Part shown: in pieces, positions 2,954 through 60,709 of the stretch
How the letters are laid out: the number at the start of each line of letters is the position of its first letter
Position numbering within the stretch: the stretch's first letter is position 1
Assembly (NCBI GenBank): GCA_903898675.1
Contig: CAIUGM010000031.1
Coordinates: 186,001-250,000 of the forward strand
Direction of reading: 5' to 3'
Origin: an uncultured Verrucomicrobiota bacterium
GTDB lineage: Bacteria; Verrucomicrobiota; Verrucomicrobiia; Opitutales; Opitutaceae
Length of the DNA: 64,000 nt
Program-made: the position numbers and the translations under genes
Notes under the pieces: model-generated
Database searches by the model: none
Told to the model about the DNA's origin: nothing
Seen by the model: the letters and a program-made list of their open reading frames with translations, nothing else

Positions 2954-3036
2954 TTAACCACGAAGGACACGAAGAGCACGAAGTACGAACCAGAACGGCG
3001 ATTGGTCTTCGTGCTCTTCGTGTCCTTCGTGGTTTA
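2954..3036. repeat. Inverted repeat, 'NHEGHEEHE' class
   Basis: Arms of about 28 bases, essentially perfect, start TTAACCACGAAGGACACGAAG and enclose a 23-base loop. It fills the gap between ureF and ureG inside an operon, so it may be a processing or stability hairpin. Conceptual translation gives a phrase of the NHEGHEEHE type, seen in many spurious ORFs of verrucomicrobial genomes. Confidence 0.9.
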
Positions 3037-53640: not shown

Positions 53641-53699
53641 CGCCGATGGTGAATAACCTTACACTTTACTGCTTGATCGGTTTGGCGGGCAGGATTCCC

Positions 53700-56600
53700 A
53701 TGGCGGCTGTGGCGTCGCCTGACTCAAATTTCGTTCATCTCCATGTCCATAGCGACTACAGTCTGCTGGATGGCGCCTGCCGGATCGACCGGCTGATGGA
53801 CCGGGCCACGGAGCTGGGCATGAAGGCCCTGGCCCTCACCGACCACGGTAATCTTTACGGCACGATCGAGTTCTACAACCAGGCCAAGGCTAAGGGCATC
53901 AAGCCGCTCGTCGGCTGCGAGCTCTATCTGGCCGCCGGCTCCCGGCTGGAACGCCAGGGCCGGTCCGACGAGGGCAAGAGCATCTTCCACCTCGGGTTGC
54001 TGGCCCGCGACCTGACCGGTTACCAGAATCTCCTCAAGCTGGTCTCCGACGCGCACCTCAAGGGTTTTTACTACAAGCCGCGCACCGATCTTGAGACCCT
54101 CGCCAAGCATGCCAAGGGGCTCATCGGCTTCACCGGCTGCCTCGCGTCGCTGGTGCCGCAGCACCTCCTGAACAACCGCTTCGAGGAGGCGCGCCAGGCC
54201 TGCGGGCGGTTCGTGGAAATTTTCGGCCGCGAAAACTACTTCGTCGAGATCCAGGATCACGGCATCCCGGAACAGCGCCAGATCATCCCGGGCCTGCTCA
54301 AGCTGGGCGAGGAATTCGGCCTGAAGGTCATTTGCTCGAACGACGTCCACTACGTCAACCACACCGACGCCGGCCCGCACGACACCCTGCTTTGCATCCA
54401 GACCGGTTCCAAGGTGGCCGAGACCGACCGGATGAAATTCACCGGCACGCAGTTCTACCTGAAGTCGCGCGCCGAGATGGAGACGATCTTCGCCGAGGTG
54501 CCCGGCGCCGTGCTGAACACCCAGCTCGTGGCGGAGATGTGCGACCTCACCATCCCCTTCCCCAAGGGCTCCGAGCGCTACCCGAAATACCCGCTGCCCC
54601 CCGAGGTGAAGACCGACCGGCCTGGCTACCTCAAGGAACTCTGCATCGCCGGACTCCAGCACCGCTACGGCGTCGACTACCGGCAGCCGGAAAAAGCCCC
54701 CGACCTCGCGCTCGCGAAGACCCTGGTCGAGCGCCTCGATTTCGAACTCTCGATCATCAACAAGACCGGCTTCATCGACTACTTCCTGGTCGTCTGGGAT
54801 TTCATCGACTGGGCGAAAAAGCAGGGCATCCCCGTCGGCCCCGGCCGCGGCTCGGGCGCCGGCTGCATCGTGGCCTACGTGCTCGGCATCACCAACCTCG
54901 ACCCGCTGCGCTTCAAGCTGCTCTTCGAGCGCTTTCTCAACCCCGAGCGCGTGTCGCCGCCGGACTTCGACATCGACTTCTGCATGCGCCGCCGCGGCGA
55001 GGTGATCGACTACGTGCGCAAGAAATACGGCAACGACTGCGTCGCCAACATCATCACCTACGGCACCCTCGGCGCCAAGATGGTCATCCGCGACGTCTCG
55101 CGCGTCCACGACCTGCCCTACGCCGACGCCGACCGGCTGGCCAAGATGATCCCCGACGAGCTCAACATCGAGCTCAAGGTCGCGATCGAGAAATCCGCCG
55201 AACTCCGCAACGAGTTCACGACAAACCCGGTCGCGAAGAAAATCATCGACCAGGCGCTCGTGCTCGAGGGCATGGTGCGCAACACCGGCAAGCATGCCGC
55301 GGGCATCATCATCACCGACCGGCCGCTGGAGGAGTTTGTCCCGCTCACCCTGCAGGAAGGCGATGTCACGGTGCAGTACGACATGAACGCCGTCGGGAAG
55401 CTCGGCCTGCTGAAGATGGACTTCCTCGGCCTCAAGACGCTCACCGTCCTCGCCGACGCCGTCGACAACGTCCGCCGCACCGCCGACCCGAAGTTCGACC
55501 TCGAGACCGTGGGCTTCGAGGACGCCAAGACGTACGCCCTGCTCAACTCCGGCCGCACCACCGGCGTCTTCCAGCTGGAGTCCGGTGGCATGCAGAACCT
55601 TTGCCGCCAGATCGGCCTGTCCTCGATCGACGAGATCGTCGCGCTGATCGCGCTCTACCGGCCGGGTCCGATGGAGTGGATTCCCGACTACGTCCGCGGC
55701 AAGAAGGAGCCGAGCACCGTCAAGTTCCCGCACAAGCTCCTCGAGGAAGTCTGCCGCGAGACCTACGGCGTGATGGTTTACCAGGAGCAGGTCATGGAGG
55801 CGGCCAAGATCATCGCCGGCTACACGCTCGGCGGCGCCGACATGCTGCGGCGCGCCATGGGCAAGAAGGACGCCGACGCCATGGCCAAGGAGCGCGCCAA
55901 GTTCGTCGAGGGCGCCAAGCGGGTGAACAACATCGACGAGCGCACCGCCGACTCGATCTTCGACATCCTCAACAAATTCGCCGGCTACGGTTTCAACAAA
56001 TCCCACTCCGCCGCCTACGCGGTGCTGAGCTACCAGACCGGCTACCTCAAGGCGAACTACCCGGTCGAGTTCATGGCCGCCATGCTCAGTTCCGAACTGG
56101 GCAACTCGGAAAAGGTCGCCCACTTCGTCGCCGAGTGCGAGGCGATGGGCCTCAAGGTGCTGGGACCGGACGTGAATGAGTCGCGCGCGATGTTCACGCC
56201 GGTGGTGAAGAAAGCTGAGAGTTCAGAGCTGAGAGCTGGGAGCCAGACAAAGGCACGAGCTTCCGTACCCTCAACACTCAGCTCTCAACTCTCAACTGGT
56301 GCCGCCGGCACCATCCGCTTCGGCCTCGCCGGCATCAAGGGCGTCGGCGAACAGGCCGCCGAGAAGATCATCGAGGAGCGGGAGAAAAACGGGCCGTTCC
56401 AGGATTTCCAGGACTTCATCGCCCGCGTCGACGCCCGTGCCCTCAACAAGCGCGTGCTCGAACACCTCATCAAGACCGGGGCCTTCGATTTTGGCGGCGA
56501 GGCCCGTGGCGCGCTCTTCGCGCGCATCGACGAGGCGCTCGCCGCCTCCGCCGCGCGGGCGCGCGATGTCGCCGCCGGCCAGCACTCCTTCCTCGACGCC

Positions 56601-57368
56601 CTGAACGAGCCCGCTCCCGGCAAGAATGGAGCCGCCACGACCCCGTCGCGGAATGGGTCCGCCCGCCACGCCGACTTCACTGCCGCCGAAAAGCTCCAGT
56701 TCGAGAAGGAACTGCTCGGCTTCTACATCTCCGGCCACCCGATGAACGCCTATGCCGGACTCGCCGAGGCCCTGTCCACCCACACCGAGGAACAGGTCCT
56801 GGCCGAGGGCGACCGCATGGAGTTTCGGATGTGCGGCATCGTTTCCGGTATCACCAAGAAACTTTCGAAGAAGGACAATCGTCCATGGGCCTTCTTCAAC
56901 TTCGCCAGCAAGCGCGCCACGCTCTCGGTGAACATGTACGCCGAAGCCTACGAGAACTACGGCAAGAACCTCGTCGAGAACCAGCCGGTGGTCATCCTCG
57001 GCAACGTCATGCGCGGCGACGACGGCGCGCGGCTCAACGTCAAGGAGTGCTACCCGCTCGACAGCTACCTGCCGGGCATGGTGCGCAAGGTCACGTGGCT
57101 CCTGCAACCCGACCACGCCGAACTCCCCTCCTTTCTCCAGCAGCTGCGCACCACGATCAACGGCGCCGGCGGCGAGAGCCGTGTCGAGCTGGCCTTCCTC
57201 TTCGAAGGCCGCGCCGCCCCGATCGCCGAGGTCGCCTCGAGCCTGAACTGGCGCGTCAACCCCGACGCCTTCCACACCCTGCGCCAACATCCCGCCGTCG
57301 CCGGCACCGTCGTCGAGGCCCGTCGTCTCGAGATCAAGGAAACCCGCCGCTGGGCCAAGAAGGGTTAA
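53700..57368 (+). CDS. dnaE: DNA polymerase III subunit alpha
   Basis: 1222 residues. N-terminal PHP domain (LHVHSDYSLLDGACRI and DHGNLYG), polymerase palm with PDFDIDF near residue 422 and GPGRGSGAGCIVAYV, then helix-hairpin-helix and OB domains. It is the main replicative polymerase. The start is the ATG at 53700 (M1 AAVASPDSNF); the frame is longer upstream but unsupported. In the C-terminal third, residues encoded by 56211-56300 (about KAESSELRAGSQ ... LSSQLSTG) come from an inverted repeat inserted in frame before AGTIRFGLAGIKGVG. Confidence 0.97.
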   Translation: MAAVASPDSNFVHLHVHSDYSLLDGACRIDRLMDRATELGMKALALTDHGNLYGTIEFYNQAKAKGIKPLVGCELYLAAGSRLERQGRSDEGKSIFHLGLLARDLTGYQNLLKLVSDAHLKGFYYKPRTDLETLAKHAKGLIGFTGCLASLVPQHLLNNRFEEARQACGRFVEIFGRENYFVEIQDHGIPEQRQIIPGLLKLGEEFGLKVICSNDVHYVNHTDAGPHDTLLCIQTGSKVAETDRMKFTGTQFYLKSRAEMETIFAEVPGAVLNTQLVAEMCDLTIPFPKGSERYPKYPLPPEVKTDRPGYLKELCIAGLQHRYGVDYRQPEKAPDLALAKTLVERLDFELSIINKTGFIDYFLVVWDFIDWAKKQGIPVGPGRGSGAGCIVAYVLGITNLDPLRFKLLFERFLNPERVSPPDFDIDFCMRRRGEVIDYVRKKYGNDCVANIITYGTLGAKMVIRDVSRVHDLPYADADRLAKMIPDELNIELKVAIEKSAELRNEFTTNPVAKKIIDQALVLEGMVRNTGKHAAGIIITDRPLEEFVPLTLQEGDVTVQYDMNAVGKLGLLKMDFLGLKTLTVLADAVDNVRRTADPKFDLETVGFEDAKTYALLNSGRTTGVFQLESGGMQNLCRQIGLSSIDEIVALIALYRPGPMEWIPDYVRGKKEPSTVKFPHKLLEEVCRETYGVMVYQEQVMEAAKIIAGYTLGGADMLRRAMGKKDADAMAKERAKFVEGAKRVNNIDERTADSIFDILNKFAGYGFNKSHSAAYAVLSYQTGYLKANYPVEFMAAMLSSELGNSEKVAHFVAECEAMGLKVLGPDVNESRAMFTPVVKKAESSELRAGSQTKARASVPSTLSSQLSTGAAGTIRFGLAGIKGVGEQAAEKIIEEREKNGPFQDFQDFIARVDARALNKRVLEHLIKTGAFDFGGEARGALFARIDEALAASAARARDVAAGQHSFLDALNEPAPGKNGAATTPSRNGSARHADFTAAEKLQFEKELLGFYISGHPMNAYAGLAEALSTHTEEQVLAEGDRMEFRMCGIVSGITKKLSKKDNRPWAFFNFASKRATLSVNMYAEAYENYGKNLVENQPVVILGNVMRGDDGARLNVKECYPLDSYLPGMVRKVTWLLQPDHAELPSFLQQLRTTINGAGGESRVELAFLFEGRAAPIAEVASSLNWRVNPDAFHTLRQHPAVAGTVVEARRLEIKETRRWAKKG
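56211..56300. repeat. In-frame inverted repeat inside dnaE
   Basis: Arms GAGAGTTCAGAGCTGAGAGC (about 56216-56242) and the complement of TCAGCTCTCAACTCTCAACT (about 56270-56297) form an imperfect palindrome of 90 bases that keeps the dnaE frame. The 20 bases at 56278-56297 recur exactly at 59064-59083. Confidence 0.88.
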
Positions 57369-57519: not shown

Positions 57520-58659
57520 ATGTCCGAATCCTCCATCCTCAACAACGCCGCCCGGATCCTGCAGCTCGTCGCCGCCGGCACGCCGGCCGACGTGGCGCTG
57601 CGTGAGTCACTCACGCAGGACCGCCACTTCACCGCGCCGCTCGAACGCCGCAGCATCAGCCGCGCCGTCTTCACGTATTATCGCTGGCGGCGCTGGCTGA
57701 AGGACAGCGACTCCGCCCAGAAGCAACTCGCCGCCGCCCTCGCCCTGCAGGAACGCTTCAACAAGGACGCCAACAGCATCAAGCCCGAGGCCCTCGCCGC
57801 CCGCGCCGTGCCCGACTGGTTAAAGGCGGAGATGGATGACGTTCCTGTTGCCTGGCTATCCCAGCTCCAGCGCGAGCCCGTCCTCTGGATCCGCACCAAA
57901 CAAGGCCTCGAATCAAAAGTCACCGCCGACCTCAAAACCTGTGTTCCGGCTGGATTGGCCGCCTACCGTCCACCGTCCACCGCCTACCGCTACACCGGCC
58001 TCACCGATCTCTACCGCACTCCCGGCTTCCAAGGCGGCGAATTCGAAATCCAGGACCTTGCCTCGCAGCTCGTCGGCCACGCCGCCAACCCGCAGCCCGG
58101 CGAAACCTGGTGGGACGCCTGCGCCGGCGAGGGCGGCAAGTCGATGCACCTCTCCGACCTGATGCAGAACAAGGGCCTGCTCTGGGTCAGCGACCGTTCG
58201 TTGCGCCGGCTCGCGAAGCTCAAGGAGCGTGCGGCCCGCGGCAAGGTTTTCAACTTCCGCGCCGCGCCGTGGGAAGGCGGCGTCAACCTGCCGACCAAGA
58301 CCAAGTTTGACGGCATCCTCCTCGACGCCCCCTGCAGCGGCATCGGCACCTGGCAGCGCAACCCGCACGCCCGCTGGACCGCCCAGCCCACGGATGTTCA
58401 CGAGCTCGCCGCGGTGCAGCTGAAGCTGCTCAACCACGTCGCCGGCTCCCTGAAACCCGGCGGCCGCCTGGTCTACGCCGTCTGCACCCTCAGCCGCGCC
58501 GAGACGACCGGGGTCGCCGACGCCTTCACCGCCGCGCATCCCGAACTCGAGCCTGCGCCTCTCTCATCGCTCAACTCCCTGCAATCTTCTCTCGTGCTCT
58601 GGCCCCAGGACCTCAACGCCAACGGCATGTTCATCGCGGCATGGAAACGGAAGCTTTAA
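57520..58659 (+). CDS. RsmB/NOP2-family RNA cytosine-5 methyltransferase
   Basis: 379 residues. An N-terminal helical domain (about 1-110) is followed by the SAM-binding core (WWDACAGEGGKSMHLS), catalytic-PC motif LLDAPCSGIGTWQRNP and the second catalytic Cys in YAVCTLSRAE. It probably methylates rRNA. Residues around 57960-57990 (YRPPSTAYRY) look repeat-derived (phrase ACCGTCCACCGTCCACC). The stop codon TAA (58657-58659) touches the next repeat. Confidence 0.9.
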   Translation: MSESSILNNAARILQLVAAGTPADVALRESLTQDRHFTAPLERRSISRAVFTYYRWRRWLKDSDSAQKQLAAALALQERFNKDANSIKPEALAARAVPDWLKAEMDDVPVAWLSQLQREPVLWIRTKQGLESKVTADLKTCVPAGLAAYRPPSTAYRYTGLTDLYRTPGFQGGEFEIQDLASQLVGHAANPQPGETWWDACAGEGGKSMHLSDLMQNKGLLWVSDRSLRRLAKLKERAARGKVFNFRAAPWEGGVNLPTKTKFDGILLDAPCSGIGTWQRNPHARWTAQPTDVHELAAVQLKLLNHVAGSLKPGGRLVYAVCTLSRAETTGVADAFTAAHPELEPAPLSSLNSLQSSLVLWPQDLNANGMFIAAWKRKL

Positions 58660-59501
58660 ACGCGGAGGGCGCGAAGGACGCGGAGAAAACCCTTTTGCCG
58701 GACTCCGCGCCCTCCGCGTCCTCCGCGTTGCATAAAATCACCGGCGAAACCGTCCGCGATGACTTCAACGCCATCAACACGGTGCTGCATTACACCCGGG
58801 CCGCGCATTTCATCGGCCTCTGGAAATCCGAACTAGCGCTGATCGAGCGCTATTTCCCGGAAAAGTCCGCGCGCCTGCTTGAGGCCGGCTGCGGCGCCGG
58901 CCGGGTGGCCGTCGGACTCTGGCACCAGGGTTATCGTGATATCACCGCCTTCGATTTCGCCTCCGAGCTGATCGAGCAGGCCGGGAGCCTTGCGCAGGAA
59001 CAAGGCATCACGGGAATCAATTTCCTCCAAGCGGACGCCACCCGGTTGTCCGACTCTCACCTCTCAGCTCTCAACTCTCAACTTAGCTTATTTGACGGCG
59101 CGCTCTTCATGTTCAACGGCCTGATGCAAATCCCCGGGCGCGAGCACCGCCGGACCGCGATGCGGGAACTGCACCGGGTCTGCCGGCCGGGGGCGCATTT
59201 CATTTTCACCACGCATGACCGCGAGGATCCCAAGGACCTGAAGGAATGGGCCAAGGAGGCGGAACGCTGGGCCAGGGGGGAACAGAATCCGCGCCTGCTG
59301 GAGTTCGGCGACCGTTATTTCAGCGACGAGACCGGCAATACCTTCATGCACCTGCCCGACCGGAAAGAGGTGCTTGAGGACCTGGCGGCGACCGGCTGGA
59401 CGCACGTCCATGACACGACGCGCAACGAACTCGCGAGTGAAACGCCGAAGGTCCGGAACTTCTCCGACAACTGCCGGTTCTGGGTGGCAAAAAAGAACTA
59501 G
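58641..59501 (+). CDS. Class I SAM-dependent methyltransferase with repeat-coded N-terminus
   Basis: 286 residues. The SAM-binding motif is LLEAGCGAGRVAVGLW; ELHRVCRPGAHFIFTTHDRED is a typical second region. The first 30 residues (METEALNAEGAKDAEK ...) are encoded by the palindrome at 58659-58729; a TTG at 58731 would start after it. Residues about 142-148 (HLSALNSQ) come from another repeat phrase (59064-59083). It overlaps the RsmB-like gene by 19 bases. Substrate unknown. Confidence 0.85.
   Translation: METEALNAEGAKDAEKTLLPDSAPSASSALHKITGETVRDDFNAINTVLHYTRAAHFIGLWKSELALIERYFPEKSARLLEAGCGAGRVAVGLWHQGYRDITAFDFASELIEQAGSLAQEQGITGINFLQADATRLSDSHLSALNSQLSLFDGALFMFNGLMQIPGREHRRTAMRELHRVCRPGAHFIFTTHDREDPKDLKEWAKEAERWARGEQNPRLLEFGDRYFSDETGNTFMHLPDRKEVLEDLAATGWTHVHDTTRNELASETPKVRNFSDNCRFWVAKKN
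58659..58729. repeat. Inverted repeat, 'NAEGAKDAE' class
   Basis: Left arm AACGCGGAGGGCGCGAAGGA (58659-58685), right arm ends GCGTCCTCCGCGTT (58703-58729). It spans the end of the RsmB-like gene and the N-terminal codons of the methyltransferase. Confidence 0.9.
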
Positions 59502-59533: not shown

Positions 59534-60019
59534 ATGAAATTTCTACCCCTGCTGGCGGTCCTGGCCGCGACCGTGGCGCTGCGCGCCGAGCCCGAGTACC
59601 CGAAGATGGGCCCCGATATCTTCGACCCCAAGGCCCAGGGCTCCGCCCAGATCATCGCCGCCCTGACCCAGGCCAAGGCTGAGCAAAAGAATGTGCTGCT
59701 GATGTTCGGCGCCAACTGGTGTGTCTGGTGCCACCGCCTGAAGAACACGATGGATACCGACGCAACCGTGGCGCAGACCCTGAACAAGAACTACATTCTG
59801 GTCCTCATCGACGTGAACATGCGCCACGGCATCAAGCGCAACTCCGACGTCAACGACCGCTACGGCAATCCCATCCACGAGGGTCTGCCGGTGCTCGTGG
59901 TCCTCGACGGCAAGGGCCGGCAGCTGACGACGCAGGAAAGCGGCGCCCTCGAGGAAGGTGAAGGCCATTCGCCCGCGAAGGTGAATGCGTTCCTGCTGCA
60001 GTGGGCGCCGAAGGCTTGA
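59534..60019 (+). CDS. Exported thioredoxin-like protein (CVWC)
   Basis: 161 residues with a signal peptide (about 1-17, LRA|EPE), followed by a thioredoxin fold with ANWCVWCHRLKNTM: active-site CVWC instead of the usual CGPC. Similar 'thioredoxin_7/DUF255-like' proteins often act in periplasmic thiol chemistry. The end LPVLVVLDGKGRQL is typical. The real start at 59534 (after a weak upstream Met) is chosen. It converges on the acetyltransferase with a perfect palindrome between. Confidence 0.88.
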   Translation: MKFLPLLAVLAATVALRAEPEYPKMGPDIFDPKAQGSAQIIAALTQAKAEQKNVLLMFGANWCVWCHRLKNTMDTDATVAQTLNKNYILVLIDVNMRHGIKRNSDVNDRYGNPIHEGLPVLVVLDGKGRQLTTQESGALEEGEGHSPAKVNAFLLQWAPKA

Positions 60020-60040
60020 GGGAGGGCTCCATTGGCCCTG

Positions 60041-60099
60041 ATGTGGGAGCGAGCTTGCTCGCGACTGCCTGAATGTCGCGAGCAAGCTCGCTCCCACAT
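60041..60099. repeat. Perfect 25-bp palindrome, Pseudomonas-REP-like
   Basis: TGTGGGAGCGAGCTTGCTCG... and its exact complement are separated by a 9-base loop (60066-60074). It lies between two convergent genes and could end both transcripts. The phrase is well known as a REP in Pseudomonas. Confidence 0.93.
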
Positions 60100-60109
60100 C
60101 GATCACCCC

Positions 60110-60709
60110 TTACTTTAGCAGCCTCTCTTCCAGCCGCGCCTTCACCGCCGGCCACTCCGCGGTCGTGAGGCTGAACATCGCGGTGTTGCGCACGAAGCCG
60201 TGGCTGTACGTCTGGTAATTGCGCAGGATCCCCTCGAAGGTGCAGCCGAGCCGGGCGATCGCGGCCCGGGACCGGGCGTTGCGCTCGTCGGTCTTGAGCT
60301 GGACGCGCACCGCGCCGTGCTCGTCGAAGGCGTGCCGCAGCATCAGGTACTTGGCCTCGGTGTTGACGGCGGTGCGGTGAAACTCCGGGTCGATCCAGGT
60401 CCAGCCGATCTCAAGCGCGCGGTGCGCCCGGCGGATATCCAGGAACCGGGTCGTGCCGACCACGCGGCCGTCGCTTGAGCGGACGGTCGCAAACGCCACC
60501 TCATTGCCCGCCTGCTGGCCGAGCAGGGCGTCGTCGATCCATTTTTCCACGTCACGCACCTGCGCGAACTGTGCGATCGTCAGGTAAGTCCAGATGTCCG
60601 GATCCCGGCTGGCCGCAAACAGCCCCTCGGCATGCCGTCGCGCCAGCGGCTCCAGGCGCACGTGCCGGCCGTTGAGCTGCACGGGCTGGGGATCGAAATT
60701 CGGTTGCAC
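60110..60709 (-). CDS. GNAT-family N-acetyltransferase (RimJ-like)
   Basis: 199 residues. Starts with 'VQLNGRHVRLEPLARRHAEGL', carries the motif FLDIRRAHRALEIGWTWIDPEFHRTAVNTEAKYLML and VRVQLKTDERNARSRAAIARLGCTFEGI, all typical of RimJ/RimL-like acyltransferases that modify protein N-termini or small amines. The second strand GIGW/W gap is absent, but the arginine-rich pantothenate loop is present. Substrate unknown. Confidence 0.88.
   Translation of the reverse strand: MQPNFDPQPVQLNGRHVRLEPLARRHAEGLFAASRDPDIWTYLTIAQFAQVRDVEKWIDDALLGQQAGNEVAFATVRSSDGRVVGTTRFLDIRRAHRALEIGWTWIDPEFHRTAVNTEAKYLMLRHAFDEHGAVRVQLKTDERNARSRAAIARLGCTFEGILRNYQTYSHGFVRNTAMFSLTTAEWPAVKARLEERLLK

Follow-up and report, generated by a model that had tools for sequence, protein, structure and literature searches.

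A REP doublet of an Opitutaceae bacterium with the core of a Pseudomonas REP class

A palindrome between two convergent genes of an uncultured Opitutaceae bacterium (Verrucomicrobiota) raises the question of how a REP known from Pseudomonas comes to stand, base for base, in another phylum. It was found in a stretch of 64,000 nucleotides (hereafter the window) on contig C31 (266,567 bp) of a 3.52 Mb genome that is assembled in 40 contigs and 99.95% complete. An earlier note, made from the letters alone, had described a perfect 25-bp palindrome at 60041-60099 between convergent genes. The setting was confirmed and the palindrome is real, but it proved slightly longer: its two arms (60040-60065 and 60075-60100) measure 26 nt each (Table 1). 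A tetranucleotide of the GTRG type stands at the foot of the palindrome, where GTGG is followed by GA, the stem-loop and GCGA, as in a REP. The 23-mer TGTGGGAGCGAGCTTGCTCGCGA is present at 60042-60064 (+) and 60076-60098 (-); no further match to it at ≤3 mismatches was detected in the 64-kb window beyond the two arms, and 100 dinucleotide shuffles of the window gave 0 matches at the same threshold. What stands at 60040-60100 is thus a true REPIN, a doublet of a mobile repeat, in a verrucomicrobial genome.

Table 1. The doublet, its parts and the genes on either side (positions in the window)
Feature	Coordinates	Strand	Remarks
Left neighbour, thioredoxin-like protein, PF13899	59516/59534-60019	+	convergent with right neighbour
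Whole REPIN	60040-60100	.	arms of 26 nt each, complementary at every position (100%), separated by 9 nt
REP unit 1, core GTGGGAGCGAGCTTGCTCGCGA	60043-60064	+	exact match; GTGG tetranucleotide, GA, stem-loop, GCGA end
Spacer CTGCCTGAATG, 11 nt between cores	60065-60075	.	9 nt (60066-60074) counting full 26-nt arms
REP unit 2, identical core inverted	60076-60097	-	exact match; GTGG end outwards
Right neighbour, GNAT acetyltransferase, PF13302	60110-60709	-	convergent with left neighbour

The genome was then searched for more copies, as the note had proposed. At ≤3 mismatches 27 REP units were found on nine contigs, 13 of them with the exact 22-mer, and a reversed control pattern gave 0 matches at the same threshold, which rules out a chance match present as a single copy. 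Twenty of the 27 units form ten compact head-out doublets, 34-40 bp from start to start; in our own sorting the remainder are three collapsed 28-bp palindromes and four units that are partnerless at ≤3 mismatches. When 17 elements were compared with our own gene calls, 10 were extragenic and 7 intragenic, and translation of four of the seven gave in-frame peptides such as GSELARD and ASKLAPT. Two of the collapsed palindromes, at C5:19204 and C22:149260, read TGTGGGAGCGAGCAAGCTCGCTCCCACA, and the window doublet would take on exactly this form through a deletion between its pair of direct GCGAGC repeats; a similar short form is found at C14:135830. Phage was considered as a carrier and rejected, the compact REPIN pattern giving 0 matches in viral_contigs.

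The repeat is not restricted to this genome. The 23-mer was detected at ≤2 mismatches in 44 of 150 genomes of the family and in 17 of 49 genera, and the exact 22-mer in 12 of the 21 genomes of the genus, the own genome being included in these counts. In five relatives (G040, G054, G074, G093 and G151) the exact REP adjoins a RAYT gene on both flanks. These RAYTs are verrucomicrobial and about 174 aa long; the gene of G040 is frameshifted and split over two frames. The RAYT of the congener G093 (P0001), for which a 100% identical protein is encoded on JACPPI010000031.1 of an Opitutia bacterium (genome_contigs), matches PF01797, and its sole PDB match at E≤0.01 is 4er8, TnpArep. Both HxH histidines and the tyrosine before NP are kept in seven aligned RAYTs. 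In G040, G074 and G093, which belong to two genera, the RAYT lies directly behind one and the same gene, presumably threonine synthase-like, suggesting that it was inherited vertically at one site. In G054 the threonine synthase-like gene and the RAYT are on different contigs.

The search for a RAYT that the note had also advised thus succeeded in relatives and not in the own genome. There, 0 matches to P0001 were obtained at E≤0.01 in a quick search that also missed a distant gene on C9; this gene (339 aa), the sole PF01797 gene of the genome, has no such REP adjoining. Since no cognate RAYT was detected, the copies of the own genome look orphaned. Among the loci examined, a REP-flanked RAYT was seen in 2 of the 12 genomes with the exact 22-mer (G093 and G151) and in none of the other ten. 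For these ten the inspection covered part of the RAYT-like matches, a number of the assemblies have gaps and RAYTs were in some cases cut off at the end of a contig, so their absence is not proven. One of the genomes in which no REP-flanked RAYT was seen among the loci examined, G037, has 48 exact copies of the 22-mer. In its stretches (L366-L370) 6 of 7 doublets share a 14-nt spacer, as variants of CATCGCCCAATAAG with one copy reversed. Such a common spacer with few differences points to recent copying and suggests, from sequence comparison, that REPINs may have been copied recently in a genome without a detected cognate RAYT.

In the literature REPINs figure as non-autonomous elements whose duplication is due to RAYTs (PMC8049555), and E. 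coli TnpAREP as processing single-stranded REP in vitro (PMC8266576). The latter protein (PDB 4ER8) is the one PDB match of P0001, itself a PF01797 protein. The repeats differ, in that the palindromes of E. coli REPs are imperfect and contain a bulge whereas those of the window type are short and perfect, as are the REPs of RAYT group 3 by the description in PMC8266576. The window doublet, in which one REP is present twice, inverted and with the heads outwards, is a non-autonomous single-stranded DNA element of the kind that a RAYT (a Y1 HUH transposase) would process on recognising the GTRG end and the folded hairpin. The verrucomicrobial RAYTs of the relatives may serve this REP. The 27 units of the own genome would then be the probable remnant of an earlier activity, mobilised by a RAYT that this lineage may since have lost, and now either immobile or served in trans.

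The note had recognised in the palindrome the phrase of a common Pseudomonas REP, and rightly so. The core GTGGGAGCGAGCTTGCTCGCGA is identical, at 22 of 22 positions, to the first 22 of the 23 bases of class PF8 of P. fluorescens Q8r1-96 (GTGGGAGCGAGCTTGCTCGCGAT; PMC3686654, Table 1). As described there, PF8 (orthogroup IV) is like the window REP present in multiple copies and in inverted doublets, with up to 749 copies per genome as against the 13 exact ones counted here. We scanned genome_contigs with seven RAYT queries, which gave at least 526 relatives in at least 591 stretches, and kept the best 80. Fifteen of these best 80 are from Verrucomicrobiota, followed by Gamma- and Betaproteobacteria at 41% identity or less. 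In the genomes of 48 of the 80 loci, the exact 22-mer was detected in 11, of which six have ten or more copies, namely three Pseudomonas (739 in P. crudilactis, 290 and 57) and three Verrucomicrobiota (71, 26 and 10); the other five have 1 copy each. Within these 48 genomes the 22-mer is therefore plentiful in some Pseudomonas and missing from most of those sampled.

A tree was built from 91 RAYTs, made up of the 80 scan loci and 11 further RAYTs; P0004, P0006, P0010 and P0016 were left out (P0006 corresponds to L237, P0004 apparently to L238, and P0001 to L234), and the RAYT of PF8 itself is absent from it. A branch with 100/98 support (1 change) divides the 24 verrucomicrobial RAYTs from the 67 proteobacterial ones, the bootstrap being not fully settled; no verrucomicrobial RAYT falls within the Pseudomonas clade in this tree. 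A single clade made of the three Opitutaceae RAYTs that bear this REP (L234, P0002 and P0003) and the Pseudomonas RAYT P0008 was rejected by the AU test (lnL 123.2 lower, p-AU 6e-90), the group having been picked after the tree was seen and without L246. P0008 has this REP upstream only, on one side. Our scan detected no REP-like hairpin within 180 bp in 33 of the 91 rows of the tree. P0001 is 51 and 49% identical to the Opitutaceae RAYTs P0005 and P0006, which have REPs of the GTAGGAGCCTGC type, 45% identical to P0007 of the same family (GTAGGTCGGG REP) and 32% identical to P0008. More distant Opitutaceae RAYTs are 35-40% identical to P0001, and the best proteobacterial matches listed reach 41%, so the separation of the phyla rests on the tree and not on identity. 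A nearer proteobacterial RAYT could lie beyond the best 80 of the at least 526 relatives.

What the two sides of the tree have in common is a scaffold, GTRGGAGC-stem-GCGA, that recurs next to RAYTs of both phyla. At RAYT flanks we counted 6 distinct scaffold REPs in Verrucomicrobiota and 30 in Proteobacteria, some being cut at 22 nt and those of P0002, P0003, L314 and P0008 having been added by hand. Two 22-mers at these flanks are letter-identical across the phyla, GTGGGAGCGAGCTTGCTCGCGA and GTAGGAGCTTGCTTGCAAGCGA, the latter shared by the verrucomicrobial L237 and L243 and by L306 of Alcanivorax. The GC..GC centre of the present core is found in 5 of the 6 verrucomicrobial and 8 of the 30 proteobacterial scaffold REPs. 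In this form the free positions are, besides two loop bases, two base pairs and one purine, and with so few of them coincidences would be unsurprising; that only 8 of the 30 proteobacterial REPs have this centre indicates that the sequence space is wider than the centre suggests. Pseudomonas REPs (GTAG-1) are described as having two unpaired bases that separate GTAG from the stem and, on the opposite side, a conserved motif of 3 bp, and some GTAG families as occurring in distant organisms (PMC3733652).

We consider it probable that the window REPIN comes from a RAYT-type system of Verrucomicrobiota and that the identical Pseudomonas core is the parallel outcome of two old, homologous REP/RAYT systems. 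Both systems would have kept GTRGGAGC-stem-GCGA and arrived independently at identical letters in the few positions left free. The match between the phyla thus most likely stems from a narrow recognition code and not from a recent transfer. It is unlikely, though not to be dismissed lightly, that the exact core goes back to the common ancestor of the two RAYT clades, or to a very old transfer, and was kept in both lines. Such retention would be in keeping with the presence of GTRGGAGC..GCGA beside RAYTs on both sides of the tree, with a second scaffold, GTAGGTCGG..CCGAC, that is likewise found in both phyla and on both sides, and with a root that is not fixed by parsimony. Against it, most of the listed scaffold REPs on both sides carry other stems, and a minimum of 3 changes on the tree is required for the exact core if L246, which has a single copy of this REP on just one flank, is counted as a bearer (the scaffold counts were confined to the 42 rows labelled A, B or C, L243 and L300 being set to A and L246 to none by hand). 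Moreover, exact retention for so long is unlikely because, according to PMC3686654, the REPs beside syntenic RAYTs differ between related Pseudomonas strains.

Parallel origin was further weighed against a recent horizontal transfer from Pseudomonas into this lineage, either of a REP/RAYT pair or of REPINs alone. The note had offered transfer of the element as one of its two explanations, and the agreement of all 22 core bases with PF8 (PMC3686654), the patchy spread in the family at ≤2 mismatches and the matches with 100% identity to the core on plasmids of Pseudomonas asturiensis, P. putida and Erwinia persicina would all agree with it. The periphery of the repeats does not. In Opitutaceae the core is followed by C in 58 of 62 units at ≤1 mismatch, whereas at the same threshold the next base is A in 87 of 87 units of the P. 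crudilactis and P. viridiflava chromosomes, and of the 13 units on two Pseudomonas plasmid stretches 12 have A and one has T; in PF8 the 3' base is T (PMC3686654). Head-out spacers measure 9-30 nt in 21 Opitutaceae pairs, 18 of them at most 17 nt, as against 43-44 nt in 25 of 25 chromosomal and 46 nt in 5 of 5 plasmid pairs of Pseudomonas (tail-to-tail neighbours of Pseudomonas, 18-46 nt apart, were left out of these counts). As a rule, then, the Opitutaceae units depart from the Pseudomonas type in both the next base and the spacer. Since these traits differ, the RAYT clades are separate in the tree and by the AU test, and P0001 is closer to three family RAYTs with other REPs than to P0008, recent transfer from Pseudomonas is not supported and appears quite improbable.

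The other explanation of the note was convergent evolution of a terminator-like palindrome. Of this, convergence stands in a different form, that of REP cores within a scaffold common to the RAYTs of both phyla, and the terminator does not. A bidirectional rho-independent terminator that is only REP-like would suit the convergent position, and REPs are reported to raise mRNA stability and to cause termination (PMC6006769). Inverted repeats, taken without regard to class, also favour convergent slots in stretches of 11 genomes (occupied are 33 of 118 convergent slots and 52 of 548 others, Fisher p 9e-7). However, no T-run follows the stem of the window doublet as it would in an intrinsic terminator, 0 terminator-like sites were found in 59900-60300, the same repeat is dispersed through the genome and also present within open reading frames, and in relatives it adjoins RAYT genes. 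We regard a terminator as very improbable, and the REPIN of a verrucomicrobial system as the better description of the locus.

In G071, G156, G160 and G161, where the two neighbours are still adjacent, the slot lacks this REP and other inverted repeats were seen by eye. The refilling of slots by new REP classes was considered and dropped, as orthologous slots were both occupied no more often than chance allows. The test took in 118 convergent, 411 co-directional and 137 divergent slots of 25-600 nt from stretches of 11 genomes; the orthologous pairs with both slots occupied were 1/15, 5/99 and 2/36 respectively, for permutation means of 1.0, 3.0 and 1.1 (p 1.0, 0.15 and 0.22); the detector missed the hairpin of G161, and G156 and G160 were unlinked to the group of the window slot.

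Pseudomonas DNA in the assembly, which the note had named as a refuter and which could be imagined from the 739 exact copies of the core in the P. crudilactis genome, is excluded for practical purposes because the flanking genes have orthologues in congeners at about 69-83% DNA identity, on a 266-kb contig whose host is thereby, as the note had supposed, not a Pseudomonas; the 27 units are spread over nine contigs and the base following the core is mostly C, not A.

Repeats of the GTAG type have already been published for Opitutus terrae (PMC3733652), and what is modestly new here is the exact match across phyla and the orphan populations. By the description in that paper, the O. terrae repeats come from the same phylum, fall into several classes and have GTGG variants, many intragenic copies and close dimers; the comparison with its families GTAG-17, -19 and -20 is one by description. 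In titles and abstract starts, our literature search returned no REP/RAYT-evolution paper on the convergent evolution of repetitive extragenic palindromes and nothing linking Opitutaceae with REPIN. We tentatively propose that REP 'words' may be re-invented again and again, letter for letter, in unrelated phyla on a scaffold with few free bases, and that REPINs may persist in the genus without a recognised RAYT. If so, a RAYT from one phylum might in principle act on REPs from another, and the persistence of REPINs without a recognised cognate RAYT would suggest mobilisation in trans or maintenance by selection; genomes with such REPINs and no detected cognate RAYT are on offer. The same 22-nt hairpin beside RAYTs that are about 32% identical (P0001 and P0008) in two phyla makes a natural test of RAYT specificity, in which recognition of the core can be separated from that of the flanking base and the spacer. 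An exact REP match across species is in any case no proof of transfer.

The window contains other inverted repeats. A second REPIN-like doublet, TGTAGCCGGGGTCGCTGACCCCG, is present at 1417-1476, and its class, GTAGCCGGGGTCGCTGACCCCGG, also flanks RAYT-like genes in G074 (L162) and G157 (L319). At 58659-58729 the inverted repeat AACGCGGAGGGCGCGAAGG stands at the start of the open reading frame 58641-59501, and at 56213-56297 the inverted repeat AGCTGAGAGTTCAGAGCTGAGAGCTG lies within the open reading frame 53646-57368, which we take to be DNA polymerase III alpha-like, and is read as SSELRAGSQ...TLSSQLST. A perfect 28-nt inverted pair at 2956-3034, AACCACGAAGGACACGAAGAGCACGAAG, is without a GTAG end; pairs of the CACGAA type similar to it were observed elsewhere on contig C31.
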